Below, in pieces: positions 52,199 through 58,888 of a stretch of DNA of 64,000 bases. The stretch's first letter is position 1; each line of letters starts with the position of its first letter. The notes beneath the pieces are model-generated. The model was not told where the DNA came from. It ran no database searches and was given only the letters and a program-made list of their open reading frames with translations. The translations under genes and the position numbers were made by a program. The stretch is from Roseovarius mucosus DSM 17069. GTDB lineage: Bacteria; Pseudomonadota; Alphaproteobacteria; Rhodobacterales; Rhodobacteraceae. The stretch lies in the NCBI RefSeq assembly GCF_000768555.3, contig NZ_KN293978.2:124001-188000 (forward strand). The letters run 5' to 3'.

Positions 52199-52789
52199 TC
52201 AATCGGCGCGGATCGCCTCGAATTCGAGAATAATGCTGACCGCATCGCCGACGAATTCGGGTAGGGCATAGGTGCTGCCGAAATCGCTGCGCAGGATCTC
52301 GGCGGTGGCGGAGATGCCCAGCGTCTCCTTGCCATGGCAACAGGGGTAATCGGCGCGTTTGTTGAGCGTCACGTCGAGGGTCACGGGCTGGGTCACGCCC
52401 CGGATCGTGAGATCGCCGGTGACGGTGCCGGTGGTCTCGGAGGTGGGGGTGCTGCCGGTGGCGGTGAAGGTGATCGAGGGATGCGCTTCGGCGTCGAGGA
52501 AATCGGCGGAACGGACATGATTGTCGCGCTTCTCGTGATCCGTATCGACGCTGCCCGCGCCGATGCGGGCGGTCACCTCGCCCAGTTCCTGTGTGTCGGG
52601 ATCGTAGGTAAAGCTGCCTTCGATGTCGGAAAACCGGCCCAGAACCTTGGCATAGCCTGCGTGCATGATGGTGAAGGCCACGACCGCATGGTCGGGGTCG
52701 ATCTGCCATGTCGCGGGTTCGGCCTGTGCGGGGGGCGCGAGGCCAAGGGCCAGCGTTGCGCCGAGGGCTGTCAGTCTGAAGGCGGTCAT
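52199..52789 (-). CDS. YceI-family periplasmic lipocalin-like protein
   Basis: A 196-residue protein with a signal peptide (residues 1-23, cleavage after APPAQA) and an eight-stranded YceI domain: WQIDPDHAVVAFTIMHAGYAKVLGRFSDIEGSF, RDNHVRSADFLDAEAHPSITF, and GDLTIRGVTQPVTLDV. The family binds isoprenoid-type lipids and responds to base or stress. Two adjacent Cys (YPCCHGK) are unusual. A GGGAGA site precedes the ATG, and it lies 15 bases downstream of opgH, probably in one operon. Confidence 0.92.
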   Translation of the reverse strand: MTAFRLTALGATLALGLAPPAQAEPATWQIDPDHAVVAFTIMHAGYAKVLGRFSDIEGSFTYDPDTQELGEVTARIGAGSVDTDHEKRDNHVRSADFLDAEAHPSITFTATGSTPTSETTGTVTGDLTIRGVTQPVTLDVTLNKRADYPCCHGKETLGISATAEILRSDFGSTYALPEFVGDAVSIILEFEAIRAD

Positions 52790-54758: not shown

Positions 54759-55154
54759 ATGTTTGCCGTCGAAGTCCGTGATCACATCATGATCGCCCAT
54801 TCCCTGCCTGATCCCGTCTTTGGCCCCGCGCAGGGGGTGCATGGGGCGACATTCGTGGTCGATGCCGCGTTTTATACAGAGGATATCGATGCGCATGGGC
54901 TGGTGGTGGACATCGGCCTTGCGTCGGAGGCGCTGGCGCGGGTGCTGGCCCCGCTGCGCTATGGCAATCTGGACGACAAACCCGAGTTCAAGGGCAAGTT
55001 CACCACCACGGAATTCCTGTGCCATCACATCTGGACGGGACTGCGCGACATTGCCCGCGCCGAGGGTCTGGGCGATGCGGGGCGATTGGCCCGTATCCGT
55101 GTGATGCTGCACGAAAGCCATGTGGCGCGTGGCTGGTACGAGGCGGATCTCTGA
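54759..55154 (+). CDS. 6-pyruvoyltetrahydropterin synthase/QueD-like protein lacking catalytic residues
   Basis: A 131-residue T-fold protein. Zinc ligands of the family, one His near residue 14 and an HGH motif, are partly kept: His14 in MIAHSL and His28 in VHGATF, but the second His of HGH is Ala30. The catalytic Cys that precedes HGH is absent, and the LDH-type Asp-His pair is replaced by LRYGNLDD. The C-terminal Glu is still suggested by LHESH. So it is unlikely to act as standard PTPS or QueD. A GGAAGG site precedes the ATG. It opens a five-gene operon with a methyltransferase, RibD-like reductase, dehydrogenase and glycosyltransferase. Confidence 0.78.
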   Translation: MFAVEVRDHIMIAHSLPDPVFGPAQGVHGATFVVDAAFYTEDIDAHGLVVDIGLASEALARVLAPLRYGNLDDKPEFKGKFTTTEFLCHHIWTGLRDIARAEGLGDAGRLARIRVMLHESHVARGWYEADL

Positions 55155-55155
55155 G

Positions 55156-55935
55156 ATGGGGTTTGACCCCGGATGGCTGGCGCTGCGGGAACCGGCGGAC
55201 AGGGCGGCACGGGATGCGACCCTGTTGCGTCGGGCGGTGGCGCTGGCCGGGCCGGGGGGCTCGGTGCTTGACCTTGGCTGTGGCACAGGATCGACGGTGC
55301 GCGCCTTTGAGGGGGCCGGAGCCACAGGCGCGCACTGGCGGCTTTTCGACAATGATGCGGGCCTGCTCGCGCGGGCGGCGGTGCTGCATCCGGAGGCGGC
55401 GATTTGTCAGGGGGATCTGGCGGAGATCGACGCTCTGCCGCTTGAGGGTGTCCGGCTTGTGACGGCCTCGGCGCTCTTTGACCTCGTGTCGCGGGACTGG
55501 GTTGAGCGGTTGGCCGCGCGGCTGGTGGCGCAGGGCACAGCGCTTTATGCTGCGCTCAGCTATGACGGCGTGATGCGCTGGTCGCCCGAGGATGCGGAGG
55601 ATGCGGCGATCACCGCGCAGTTCAACGCGCATCAGCGGGGCAACAAGGGGTTTGGGGCAGCTCTTGGCCCAAGCGCGGCGGAAACAGCCGCCGGGATATT
55701 CGCGTCGTTGGGATATGAGGTGCAATGCGCGCCAAGTTCATGGCGGTTGGGGCCGCAAGAGGCAGAGATGCAGCGCCTGCTGCTGGCGGGCATTGCGCAG
55801 GCGGCGGCCGAGGCGGGATACGCCGGAGCAGAAGGCTGGCAGACGCGGCGCGCGCGGGTTCTTGCCGAGGGGTGGGCCGAAATCGGCCATATCGACCTAT
55901 TGGCGGTGCCGCCGGGGGATGGCCGACGCGCATGA
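55156..55935 (+). CDS. SAM-dependent methyltransferase
   Basis: A 259-residue class I methyltransferase. The SAM-binding motif VLDLGCGTGSTVRAF (residues 36-50) is followed by an acidic strand end (LFDNDAGLL) and the post-II region DLAEIDALPLEGVRLVTASALFDLVS. It begins one base after the pterin-synthase-like gene. The acceptor is unknown; with the rest of the operon in mind, a pterin or small heterocycle is a possibility. The C-terminal part has no further recognised domain. Confidence 0.85.
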   Translation: MGFDPGWLALREPADRAARDATLLRRAVALAGPGGSVLDLGCGTGSTVRAFEGAGATGAHWRLFDNDAGLLARAAVLHPEAAICQGDLAEIDALPLEGVRLVTASALFDLVSRDWVERLAARLVAQGTALYAALSYDGVMRWSPEDAEDAAITAQFNAHQRGNKGFGAALGPSAAETAAGIFASLGYEVQCAPSSWRLGPQEAEMQRLLLAGIAQAAAEAGYAGAEGWQTRRARVLAEGWAEIGHIDLLAVPPGDGRRA

Positions 55936-55940
55936 CATTT

Positions 55941-55968
55941 TTGAAAACCCGTCTATCTCTGCTATGCA
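55941..55968 (+). promoter_or_regulatory. Possible promoter before the RibD-like gene
   Basis: TTGAAA at 55941-55946 and TATGCA at 55963-55968, 16 bases apart, lie about 75 bases upstream of the reductase start. The 109-base gap here is the largest inside the operon, so a second promoter is plausible. Confidence 0.35.
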
Positions 55969-56044
55969 CAACACAAGGCGAGCCATAGCGGCCCGCGTTC
56001 AACCATGGCGAAGCGCCGAGACGCAACGCGAAACGGAGACCCGG

Positions 56045-56863
56045 ATGCAGAGTGCTGAAGTCACCCCCAAGGTCTGGGAGCATATTCTCGCGGCGCGCGC
56101 GGGGCGCGCGTGCCTGTGTTGCGGGGACTGGGCCACGGGCGAGCGCGCGGCGATGGCGCTCTATGGCTCGATGCTGGCTGCCCCCGGCACGCCGCAGGTC
56201 GTGGCGCAGATCGGGCAATCGCTGGACGGGCGGGTGGCCACGGTCACGGGCGATGCGGCGGATGTGTCGGGCCCGGACGGGCTGGCGCATCTGCACCGGA
56301 TGCGGGCGCTGGTCGATGCGGTGATCGTGGGGGTCAAAACCGCGCTCCATGACGACCCGCGTCTGACCGTGCGGCTTGTGCCGGGGCAGAATCCGGCACG
56401 CGTGGTGATTGATCCCTCGGGGCGATTGCCGAATGAGGCGCGTTTGTTCGCAGAGGACGGCACGCGGCGGATCGTCATTCAGGAGGTGGACAAGCCGCGC
56501 CCCGAGGGGGTCGAGGTGATCCGCCTGCCGCGCAAGGACTGGATTTCGCCGCCCGCCATCGTGAGCGCCCTGCGCAAGGTGGGGCTGCATCACCTGATGG
56601 TCGAAGGCGGCGCCATCACTATTGCGCGGTTTATCGAGGCGGATTTGCTGGCGCGGCTGCATGTGGCGGTGGCGCCGCTCTTGATCGGGGCGGGGCCGCA
56701 GGGTCTGACCACGCGGCCCGTGGCGCGGTTGGCGCAGGCGCGGCGGCCTGAAACGCAGGTTTATGGGCTTGGGTCGGACGTGCTCTTTGATTGCGTGATG
56801 GGCGCGCGGGTGGCGGCGGAGGTCTGGCCGCATGCACGCCAACCGGCCGCACGGCTGGGGTGA
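56045..56863 (+). CDS. RibD C-terminal-type reductase (DHFR-like fold)
   Basis: A 272-residue protein of the RibD_C/HTP-reductase family. GQSLDGRVATVTGDAADVSG is the NADPH-binding start, followed by HRMRALVDAVIVGVKTALHDDPRLTVR and the late motif MVEGGAITIARFIEADL. There is no deaminase domain of riboflavin RibD and no other riboflavin gene nearby. Such stand-alone reductases act on pyrimidine or pterin-type substrates. The ATG at 56045 has a GGAGA site; longer upstream frames are antisense readings. It is followed after five bases by the dehydrogenase. Confidence 0.88.
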   Translation: MQSAEVTPKVWEHILAARAGRACLCCGDWATGERAAMALYGSMLAAPGTPQVVAQIGQSLDGRVATVTGDAADVSGPDGLAHLHRMRALVDAVIVGVKTALHDDPRLTVRLVPGQNPARVVIDPSGRLPNEARLFAEDGTRRIVIQEVDKPRPEGVEVIRLPRKDWISPPAIVSALRKVGLHHLMVEGGAITIARFIEADLLARLHVAVAPLLIGAGPQGLTTRPVARLAQARRPETQVYGLGSDVLFDCVMGARVAAEVWPHARQPAARLG

Positions 56864-56868
56864 GGGGC

Positions 56869-57834
56869 ATGGCGCAAGCGGCGCGCGCGCTTTGGATTGT
56901 GGCCCCGGAGCAGGTGGATTTGCGTCCCGTGGCGGTAGAGCCGGGACCGGGCGATGTTGTGATCGAGACGCTCTATACTGGCATCAGCAGGGGCACCGAG
57001 CGGCTGGTGTTTCAGGGCCGGGTGCCCGAGAGCGAGCACGCCACGATGCGGGCGCCGTTGCAGGAAGGCGCGTTTCCCGCCCCGGTCAAATACGGCTATT
57101 GCGCCGTTGGGCGCGTGAGCACGGGGGATCGGGCGGGGCAGGTGGTCTTTGTGCTGCACCCGCATCAGACACGGTTTGCCTGCCCCGCGCAGATGGCGGT
57201 GCCGGTGCCGAACGGCGTGCCGCCTGCGCGGGCTGTGCTGGCGGCCAATATGGAAACCGCGCTCAATATCCTGTGGGATGCGCAGGTGGCCCCCGGCGAC
57301 CGGGTGGCGGTGATCGGCGCGGGCACGGTGGGGGCGCTTGTGGGCTATCTTGCGGCGCGGGTGCCGGGAACGGATGTCACCCTGATCGACCGCGACGGGG
57401 CGCGGGCTGCGCTGGCCGAAGCGTTTGGGTGTCGGTTTGCGCAGCCGGAGGCGGCGCAGGGCGATGCGGATGTGGTGATCCATGCCTCGGCCAGTGCCGC
57501 CGGGCTTGGCACGGCGATCGGGATTGCGGGGGTCGAGGCGCGGGTGGTCGAGGCCAGTTGGTATGGCAGCGGTGAGACACCCGTGGCTCTTGGCGGCGCG
57601 TTTCATCAGCGGCGGTTGCAGATCATCTCGTCGCAGGTGGGGCGTATCCCGGCCAGCCATGCGGCACGCTGGGATTATCGGCGGCGGATGGAGGTGGCGC
57701 TGCGGCTCTTGGTCGATCCGGTGCTGGATCGGTTGATCTCCGGTGAGACGCGGTTTGACGATCTGCCGCGCGACTATGCGGGGATTTTGGCGGCGGCAGG
57801 CACCCTCTGCCATCGGGTGCGCTATGGCGCGTGA
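56869..57834 (+). CDS. Medium-chain alcohol dehydrogenase-type oxidoreductase
   Basis: A 321-residue MDR-superfamily protein resembling zinc-type dehydrogenases such as BchC. The catalytic-zinc Cys motif is replaced by TGISRGTERLVF. The cofactor loop VIGAGTVGALVG lies near residue 148, after AANMETALNILWDA. The missing Cys suggests non-canonical metal use. It lies between the reductase and the glycosyltransferase, overlapping the latter by 11 bases, and the three are probably made together. Confidence 0.85.
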   Translation: MAQAARALWIVAPEQVDLRPVAVEPGPGDVVIETLYTGISRGTERLVFQGRVPESEHATMRAPLQEGAFPAPVKYGYCAVGRVSTGDRAGQVVFVLHPHQTRFACPAQMAVPVPNGVPPARAVLAANMETALNILWDAQVAPGDRVAVIGAGTVGALVGYLAARVPGTDVTLIDRDGARAALAEAFGCRFAQPEAAQGDADVVIHASASAAGLGTAIGIAGVEARVVEASWYGSGETPVALGGAFHQRRLQIISSQVGRIPASHAARWDYRRRMEVALRLLVDPVLDRLISGETRFDDLPRDYAGILAAAGTLCHRVRYGA

Positions 57835-58888
57835 GGCTGGGCGCGAGTTGGCCTTTGCCGTGCCGGGGGATCCGGAGCTGACGACGGGGGGATACCTCTA
57901 CGACCGGCGGTTGGCGGAGGCATTGGTGGCGCGGGGTATCACGCTGCGGCATCTGCGGTTGGGGGACAGTTTTCCGCATCCCGATGCGCGCGACATGGCG
58001 GATGCGCTGGCGCAATTGGGGGCGTTGCCGCGCGATTGCCCGGCCTTGGTGGATGGGCTGGCTTACGGTGCGCTCGACCCGGACGGGGTGGCGCGTCTGG
58101 CGGCCCCGATGGTGGCGCTGGTGCATCATCCGCTGGCGCTTGAGCCGGGGTTGAGCGCGGCGCAGGCGCAGGCCATGGCGGCGCGGGAGCGGGCCAATCT
58201 GAGCCGGGCGCGGCATATCGTGGTGACGAGCGGGCATATCGCGGGCCTCTTGCGCGAGGCCTATGGGGTGGCACCGGAGCGGATCAGCGTGGCGCGGCCG
58301 GGGTTTGTGGTGCCGAACCTGAGCCCGGAGCCAGAGGTGCCGCCGCTGATCCTGTCGGTGGGGCTGCTCGCGCGGCGCAAGGGGCATGACGTGCTCTTGC
58401 GGGCCTTGGCGCGGATTACAGACCTAGAGTGGCGGGCGGTGATTGTCGGGCGATTGCATGAGCCCGAGACGGTGGCGGCATTGCACGCGTTGCGGGCCGA
58501 TCTTGGGCTGGCGGAGCGGGTCGAGATCGCGGGGGAGATTACGCAACCGGCGCTGGAGGCGCTGTATGGGCGCGCCACGCTCTTTGCGCTGGCGACGCGC
58601 TATGAGGGCTATGGCATCGTGTTTGATGAGGCGATGGGCCATGGGCTGCCGATCGTGAGCACACAGGCGGGGGCGGTGCCGGAGACGGTGGCCCCCGGCG
58701 CGGGCATTCTGGTGCCGCCCGAGGATGACGCGGCCTTTGGCGCGGCGCTGCGGCGGATGCTGAGTGAGCCTGCGTGGCGGGCAGGCTGCGCCGATGCGGC
58801 GCGGCAGGCGGCGGCGGGCTTGGGCGATTGGGCGGCGGCGGCGCAGGTGGTGTCCGACGCGGTGCGGGTTCACACCTCGGCGGAGTAG
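57824..58888 (+). CDS. Family 4-type glycosyltransferase
   Basis: A 354-residue GT-B glycosyltransferase. The first half starts AVPGDPELTTGGYLYDRRLAEAL and has VHHPLALEPGL. The second half has LSVGLLARRKGHDVLLRALARI and ATRYEGYGIVFDEAMGHGLPIVST, where the E-x(7)-E donor-phosphate site occurs as EGYGIVFDE. The donor sugar and acceptor are unknown. It closes the pterin-like operon, so it may glycosylate its product. Its 3' end overlaps the convergent GlxA-type regulator by 19 bases. Confidence 0.88.
   Translation: MAREAGRELAFAVPGDPELTTGGYLYDRRLAEALVARGITLRHLRLGDSFPHPDARDMADALAQLGALPRDCPALVDGLAYGALDPDGVARLAAPMVALVHHPLALEPGLSAAQAQAMAARERANLSRARHIVVTSGHIAGLLREAYGVAPERISVARPGFVVPNLSPEPEVPPLILSVGLLARRKGHDVLLRALARITDLEWRAVIVGRLHEPETVAALHALRADLGLAERVEIAGEITQPALEALYGRATLFALATRYEGYGIVFDEAMGHGLPIVSTQAGAVPETVAPGAGILVPPEDDAAFGAALRRMLSEPAWRAGCADAARQAAAGLGDWAAAAQVVSDAVRVHTSAE

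Follow-up and report, generated by a model that had tools for sequence, protein, structure and literature searches.

Five adjacent genes of Roseovarius mucosus DSM 17069 belong to a gene module that, as we confirm here, is conserved across two distant phyla and is not a chance assembly. They lie on contig C4 of the 4.24-Mb, 17-contig genome, within an analysed stretch of 64,000 nucleotides (C4:124001-188000; the window). There they occupy positions 54759 to 58888 of the + strand, in the order PTPS-fold protein, methyltransferase, RibD C-terminal-type reductase (RibD_C), MDR-fold oxidoreductase and GT4 glycosyltransferase. Families were called with Pfam and NCBIfam, and the methyltransferase and MDR protein were also called by comparing AlphaFold2 models with solved structures. 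The five genes and the gene upstream of them are as follows.

54759..55154, +: PTPS-fold protein of the FGPAQ type (PTPS-IV), 131 aa; PF01242, 71.7 bits, over the cut-off
55156..55935, +: class I S-adenosylmethionine-dependent methyltransferase, 259 aa; model and fold comparison
56045..56863, +: RibD C-terminal-type reductase with no deaminase domain, 272 aa; PF01872, 130.2 bits
56869..57834, +: MDR-fold oxidoreductase, distantly BchC-like and lacking the usual zinc ligands, 321 aa; bchC, 53.3 bits, with model and fold match
57824..58888, +: GT4 glycosyltransferase, 354 aa; PF00534, 104.4 bits
52805..54595, -: divergent OpgH/MdoH-like GT2, upstream of the module; NCBIfam MdoH models, up to 720.7 bits

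Successive junctions measure 1 bp, 109 bp and 5 bp, and the last is an 11-bp overlap; the 109-bp gap between the methyltransferase and RibD_C genes shrinks to 28 bp if an alternative ATG is used. An earlier account made from the letters of the window (the sequence-only reading) had described these five enzyme families as tightly packed on one strand, which Pfam, NCBIfam and the gene coordinates bear out. Our preferred reading, held at about even confidence, is that the operon is the core of a pathway from GTP to a glycosylated, methylated, pterin-like molecule via a riboflavin-type intermediate, and not via GTP cyclohydrolase I.

Conservation was surveyed in draws of 149 genomes from the family, 398 from Pseudomonadota and 396 from Actinomycetota, the phylum of an Aquiluna metagenome-assembled genome. 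PTPS-IV is present in 13/149, 27/398 and 10/396 genomes, respectively; each draw counts its centre genome (G000 or G149), a known carrier, without which the fractions are 12/148, 26/397 and 9/395. The profile searches score only part of the first-look candidates in each genome, and misses are possible. An MDR profile (E values up to 1e-50) matches 27 of the 398 Pseudomonadota genomes, and these are identical to the 27 with PTPS-IV; judged by genome handles, every search of this draw covered one and the same set. The methyltransferase profile (E values up to 1e-20) matches 26, namely 25 of the 27 PTPS-IV genomes and 1 of the 371 others; G742 and G758 are unmatched, and the extra genome, G910, gives a weaker score of 126.6 bits. 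On plasmids, MDR matches (E values up to 1e-40) occur on 16 records, all within the 20 that carry PTPS-IV. The identical PTPS-IV and MDR genome sets, the nearly identical methyltransferase set, the recurrence in Actinomycetota and the empty control stretches described below together argue against chance assembly. Homologues scattered singly, which the sequence-only reading had named as the outcome that would speak against it, are thus not what we find. The module is also plasmid-borne (L121, L122, L123, L124, L125, L127, L130 and L131), one of these being a 59-kb mobilizable Microbacterium plasmid. Carriers of the module include the laboratory strain Methylosinus trichosporium OB3b. In L051, the copy of the Aquiluna genome on which the Actinomycetota draw was centred, the PTPS is 63% identical, the layout is Rhodobacteraceae-like and the MDR frames are broken. 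This resemblance to the Rhodobacteraceae copies makes transfer or misbinning possible, and sequencing error is another possible source.

Gene neighborhoods were scored in 49 drawn loci and 20 control stretches with hidden Markov models made by clustering the first 93 loci, with plasmid-copy seeds added; the training loci include the 12 family-draw loci and L051. Controls were stretches of 19.5 kb elsewhere on module-carrying contigs, placed by hand and not at random, from 17 phylum-draw and 3 family-draw genomes. Score thresholds were fixed after the hits had been viewed and exclude two matches of the family draw (a 55-bit MDR and a 77-bit methyltransferase match) and two control phosphatase matches. 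Stretches are of unequal length: L184 is a 3.8-kb contig, and L016, L017, L021, L025, L026, L185 and L205 are shorter than 17 kb. The earlier 80 loci were the best 80 of at least 569 and favor close relatives, so our conclusions rest on the drawn sets.

Among the Pseudomonadota loci (n = 27, window included), the core is nearly complete, with MDR in 27, GT4 in 26, methyltransferase in 25 and RibD_C in 23. Other neighbors are MdoH (13), CDP-alcohol phosphatidyltransferase (12), GTP cyclohydrolase II (GCHII; 11), flippase (11) and FkbM (8), with cytochrome b561 (7), creatininase (6), sulfatase-like (5) and inositol phosphatase (1) genes being rarer. The Actinomycetota loci (n = 10) carry GT4 in 10, MDR in 9, and methyltransferase, GCHII, CDP-alcohol transferase and flippase in 8 each, followed by creatininase (6), RibD_C (3), FkbM (1) and sulfatase-like (1) genes; inositol phosphatase, b561 and MdoH are each found in 0. 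Within the family (n = 13, window included) the counts are MDR 11, methyltransferase 11, GT4 10, RibD_C 8, MdoH 8 and b561 4; CDP-alcohol transferase, sulfatase-like, flippase and inositol phosphatase 3 each; FkbM 2, GCHII 1 and creatininase 0. At the chosen thresholds, every module and partner profile scored 0/20 in the controls. No deaminase, lumazine synthase or radical SAM protein was found among the scanned representatives of recurrent neighbor clusters, a scan outside which lie clusters c14, c17, c18 and c20 (5 to 7 loci each).

The window PTPS matches PDB 3d7j (SCO6650; E = 1.3e-34, 53% identity), a structure solved with no function assigned; we take the tag to denote Streptomyces coelicolor, a laboratory model. 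The motifs FGPAQ, IAHS and HGAT are present in all 23 aligned PTPS-IV sequences, which come from both phyla and include the window's own. None of the 23 has a Cys before HGAT, and the Asp-His pair is replaced relative to the QueD of the same genome. In 23/23, the third zinc His is Ala (HGH becomes HGA), whereas the first zinc His and the first His of HGH are kept; a C-terminal Glu is likewise kept in 23/23. This Glu is presumably the ring (pterin) anchor, and the roles of the Cys, the Asp-His pair and the zinc His residues are those we assume for QueD and PTPS. Given that Cys, Asp-His pair and third zinc His are all lost, a QueD or PTPS mechanism is unlikely for PTPS-IV; a metal site, if there is one, may be of a different build. 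The QueD equivalog score is 28.8 bits against a cut-off of 89.25, and the score is also far below the 6PTHBS cut-off.

In the MDR protein, the AlphaFold2 model confirms the fold, and the closest solved folds include sorbitol, xylitol, arabinitol and idonate dehydrogenases, with other MDRs scoring nearly as high. The bchC equivalog cut-off of 291.25 bits is not reached. Zinc-dependent MDR enzymes bind their catalytic zinc through Cys and a GHE motif. Among 26 aligned sequences there is no invariant Cys; Ser40 is invariant, and KYGY stands at the placed GHE position. Database names for three of the genes are 6-carboxytetrahydropterin synthase, zinc-binding alcohol dehydrogenase and RibD family protein, the first two of which are contradicted by these residues.

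Fold comparison of the methyltransferase returns small-molecule methyltransferases of many kinds and indicates no substrate. The GT4 protein matches several GT4 enzymes in the PDB, including PimB-type and MshA-type enzymes, with a tetrahydrobiopterin glucosyltransferase last of 26 (E = 5e-4). In 6 of the 49 drawn loci (L203, L204, L206, L207, L208 and L209), GT4 and methyltransferase are fused in one frame of 656 to 662 residues, which ties the glycosylation and methylation steps together. The L204 fusion exceeds the cut-off for Pfam GT4 domains and scores 26.8 bits for Methyltransf_25 against a cut-off of 27.

Pfam finds only the RibD_C domain in the reductase and no N-terminal deaminase, and thus it is not a bifunctional RibD. 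It scores 104.1 bits for rib_reduct_arch, for which the cut-off is 186.45. The operon protein has Gln where full RibD has Lys; drawn copies have Gln in 31/33 and Ser in 2/33 (L176 and L184). We take that Lys to mark reductases that act after deamination.

The sequence-only reading had looked to folE/queE-type genes as partners. The recurrent partner is instead GCHII, with or without a creatininase-type deformylase; ten annotated plasmid stretches list no folE or queE, in gene tables that are incomplete and with no other search for folE. GCHII occurs in 20 drawn loci (1 family, 8 Actinomycetota and 11 Pseudomonadota), and two scanned Pseudomonadota representatives exceed the NCBIfam PRK08815 cut-off. 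One residue of GCHII reportedly switches between a formyl product and the diaminopyrimidine (Spoonamore et al. 2006), and we take a Met/Tyr position in our alignment, placed via the E. coli sequence, to be that switch. The aligned residue is Met in L177 to L182, which are all six Actinomycetota loci with both GCHII and creatininase; the remaining 14 of the 20 loci have Tyr. The other two Actinomycetota GCHII loci are Tyr-type, L176 being without creatininase and L184 lying on a contig too short to tell. Streptomyces plasmid copies L121 and L130 have a Met-type GCHII and a creatininase. The two genes lie side by side in 6/10 Actinomycetota and 4/27 Pseudomonadota drawn loci; creatininase calls in L200 and L206 rest on PF02633 at 212 to 218 bits. 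According to the available passages of PMC9478397, the creatininase-family formamidase BrbF converts the formyl intermediate to the diaminopyrimidine. Because the Met-type loci carry creatininase and a BrbF-type formamidase is published, two routes to one intermediate, through a Tyr-type GCHII or through a Met-type GCHII plus creatininase, seem to adjoin the same core. A strict rule, in which GCHII is Met-type if and only if creatininase is present, fails in Pseudomonadota.

The window genome encodes further copies of several of these enzymes. Contig 1 holds a stand-alone GCHII, which shares 57% identity across 363 residues with the GCHII within the related cluster L035. At the putative switch position it has Tyr, not the Met of the FAPy-forming (SCO6655) type. 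Contig 5 carries a full RibD (385 aa, C5:333479), with deaminase motifs read by eye, and a RibBA (L117 7562-8713, about C5:292257) whose GCHII part is without the usual motifs. With full RibD and RibBA encoded elsewhere in the genome, simple duplication of riboflavin synthesis was rejected as a role for the operon. A second PTPS (QueD) lies on contig 3 among queC/queE/queF-like open reading frames, also read by eye, and a queuosine branch was rejected on this ground. An anti-phage defense role was rejected as well, PADLOC having given a single 26-bit methyltransferase match.

CDP-alcohol phosphatidyltransferase and flippase genes recur in both phyla. Searched with a fused CDP-alcohol transferase/sulfatase plus a phosphatase, the window genome gave phosphatases only (best 47% identical, contig 6); searched with flippase, FkbM and b561, it gave a single 36% identical b561-like protein. 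The five-gene core thus seems able to work without the CDP-alcohol phosphatidyltransferase and the flippase. The MdoH-like neighbor, found in no Actinomycetota locus and no control, is at most a putative pathway member. Directly behind it lies a YceI family gene (52199-52789, - strand; PF04264, 157 bits), and an AraC-type regulator, called with Pfam/NCBIfam, stands convergent to the module on its downstream side. Next to MdoH in L100 stands a gene whose product exceeds the NCBIfam cut-off for a glucan ABC exporter.

Under our preferred reading, GCHII, here stand-alone and on another contig, would open GTP to 2,5-diamino-6-ribosylamino-4(3H)-pyrimidinone 5'-phosphate. RibD_C would then reduce the ribosyl to a ribityl chain, with the 2-amino group retained for want of an accompanying deaminase. 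The MDR protein would use NAD(P) in a redox step whose site is probably the side chain. PTPS-IV, with its Glu kept and the QueD catalytic residues gone, may bind the ring and guide closure or side-chain rearrangement, after which a sugar would be attached by GT4 and a methyl group by the methyltransferase. The CDP-alcohol phosphatidyltransferase and UPF0104 flippase of many other lineages, neither of which our queries found in the window genome, could provide a membrane or export step. The make-up of the module, its conservation, the co-occurrence of its genes and the altered residues are observed; we infer the pterin-type and glycosylated nature of the product, along with every reaction and their order. 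Of the pathway in the sequence-only reading, the single conserved module stands; its entry partner is now GCHII, and its PTPS lacks the QueD/PTPS catalytic residues.

Several observations weigh against this scheme. GCHII is missing from the window operon, and it serves riboflavin synthesis too. Without zinc ligands, ordinary alcohol-dehydrogenase chemistry is doubtful for the MDR protein. Creatininase lies beside GCHII in 4 of the 11 Tyr-type Pseudomonadota loci, and L196 and L210 have creatininase with no GCHII nearby. Sixteen drawn loci have no adjacent RibD_C: an operon-type copy lies elsewhere in 4 of these genomes (278 to 301 bits), and the other 12, including all six Met-type Actinomycetota, give only matches of 120 bits or less, although completeness is only 76% and 82% for two of these 16 genomes and divergent copies like that of L176 would escape detection. 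For comparison, the best match to the operon RibD_C in 15 module-less genomes is 143.6 bits. The RibD_C step is usual, not universal. Finally, MDR is missing from 4 of the 20 plasmid records that carry a PTPS-IV-like gene; all four are from Streptomyces, and three of them (L126, L129 and L132) show no other module gene within the stretch. The PTPS-IV-like genes of these three lie among MEKHLA, cupin or metallo-hydrolase genes and are possibly an offshoot with another role.

The foremost rival, which we consider unlikely, is a glycosylated pterin that starts from the usual product of GTP cyclohydrolase I, in the manner of the pterin glycosides of cyanobacteria and green sulphur bacteria, with PTPS-IV and MDR shaping the side chain, RibD_C acting as a dihydropterin reductase similar to dihydrofolate reductase and GT4 glycosylating. 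The RibD reductase domain and dihydrofolate reductase are indeed alike in core structure and mechanism, as stated in available passages of PMC8256712. The conserved Glu of PTPS-IV, the presumed pterin anchor, would fit, but PTPS-IV is without the residues for PTPS chemistry. Likewise, the weak GT4 match to UDP-glucose:tetrahydrobiopterin glucosyltransferase points this way, yet it ranks below the PimB-type, MshA-type and other GT4 enzymes. Further, the recurrent linkage is to GCHII, folE itself not having been searched for.

Somewhat less probable, and to us quite doubtful, is a flavin-, lumazine- or deazaflavin-like product that branches from riboflavin synthesis and ends in a ring other than a pterin. 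Both GCHII and RibD_C are enzymes of the riboflavin type, and the available part of PMC5041015 states, citing unpublished work, that PTPS-IV takes part in F420 synthesis. Against this stands the lack of deaminase, lumazine synthase and radical SAM proteins among the scanned clusters. Many hosts of the module are Pseudomonadota that are not known to make F420.

We give the same low credence to a second, FolE-independent route to pterins, in which MDR oxidizes the ribityl chain. GCHII and RibD_C would give a 6-ribitylamino pyrimidine, and oxidation at ribityl C2' would yield a 1-amino-1-deoxy-ketose, the same kind of compound as the Amadori product of GTP cyclohydrolase I. Closure on the 5-amino group, held by PTPS-IV, would then lead to a dihydroneopterin-type phosphate to be glycosylated and methylated. 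Where a lineage also has CDP-alcohol phosphatidyltransferase and flippase, the pterin might be lipid-anchored or exported as a membrane pterin cofactor, and cytochrome b561 could be its electron partner in the membrane. The polyol-dehydrogenase-like MDR folds hint at this route, though other MDRs score almost equally and the zinc site is absent; the six Actinomycetota module genomes with no operon-type RibD_C argue against it.

More doubtful still is a glycolipid or glucan module, in which the chemistry falls to the MdoH-like GT2, GT4, CDP-alcohol phosphatidyltransferase, sulfatase-like, FkbM methyltransferase and flippase proteins, with PTPS-IV and RibD_C taken up for a non-pterin use. Envelope-type genes are frequent neighbors in the drawn loci, and the L100 exporter would suit such a module, but the core is present in the window genome, where queries found no CDP-alcohol transferase, sulfatase, flippase or FkbM, and MdoH is missing from all ten Actinomycetota loci. 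Mere co-location of unrelated enzymes, to which varying gene order and strand between lineages might point, is disfavored and has a negligible chance given the matched PTPS-IV/MDR profiles, the spread over two phyla and plasmids, and the GT4-methyltransferase fusion.

The strongest new facts are the identical PTPS-IV and MDR genome profiles, the GCHII/creatininase linkage, the GT4-methyltransferase fusion and the lost catalytic residues in PTPS and MDR. Retention of the module in two phyla implies a useful, so far undescribed metabolite, and the genes appear to encode a real, conserved and uncharacterized pathway whose product would be pterin-like. The question of what PTPS-IV does thereby becomes directly testable.

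In the full-text literature covered, outside which most subscription papers lie, no paper describes the complete gene set, SCO6650 is not mentioned, and FGPAQ-type PTPS appears only in PMC5445326 and one line of PMC5041015. Available passages of a 2026 review of bacterial pterins (PMC13259868) contain neither the word PTPS nor glycosyltransferase. The AGeNNT network paper (2017; PMC5445326) describes FGPAQ cluster 62 of IPR007115, with 561 sequences and PF00925 and PF01872 nearby, and its signature is that of the window PTPS. In the section available, PF00925 is named 'FolE2', no pathway is proposed, and MDR, GT4, methyltransferase, deformylase, CDP-alcohol transferase and flippase do not appear.

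Among known systems, the pteridine glycosyltransferases of cyanobacteria and Chlorobium resemble the module in that a glycosyltransferase is proposed to act on a pterin, a role only predicted for GT4; the GT4 sequence match is marginal, and the available literature passages on them mention no such module. The archaeal/fungal-type riboflavin reductase is, like the operon protein, a stand-alone RibD_C, whereas the latter falls under the cut-off, has its own GQSLDGR motif and shares its genome with a separate full RibD. QueD and 6-pyruvoyl-tetrahydropterin synthase belong to the same Pfam family as PTPS-IV, which has two of their three zinc His residues and the Glu but not the catalytic Cys, the Asp-His pair or the third zinc His. 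The BrbF system, as far as the available passages describe it, combines GCHII with a creatininase-type formamidase, and some module loci likewise have GCHII and a creatininase family gene together; its route ends in riboflavin, whereas the module pair lies with MDR, PTPS-IV, GT4 and the methyltransferase.

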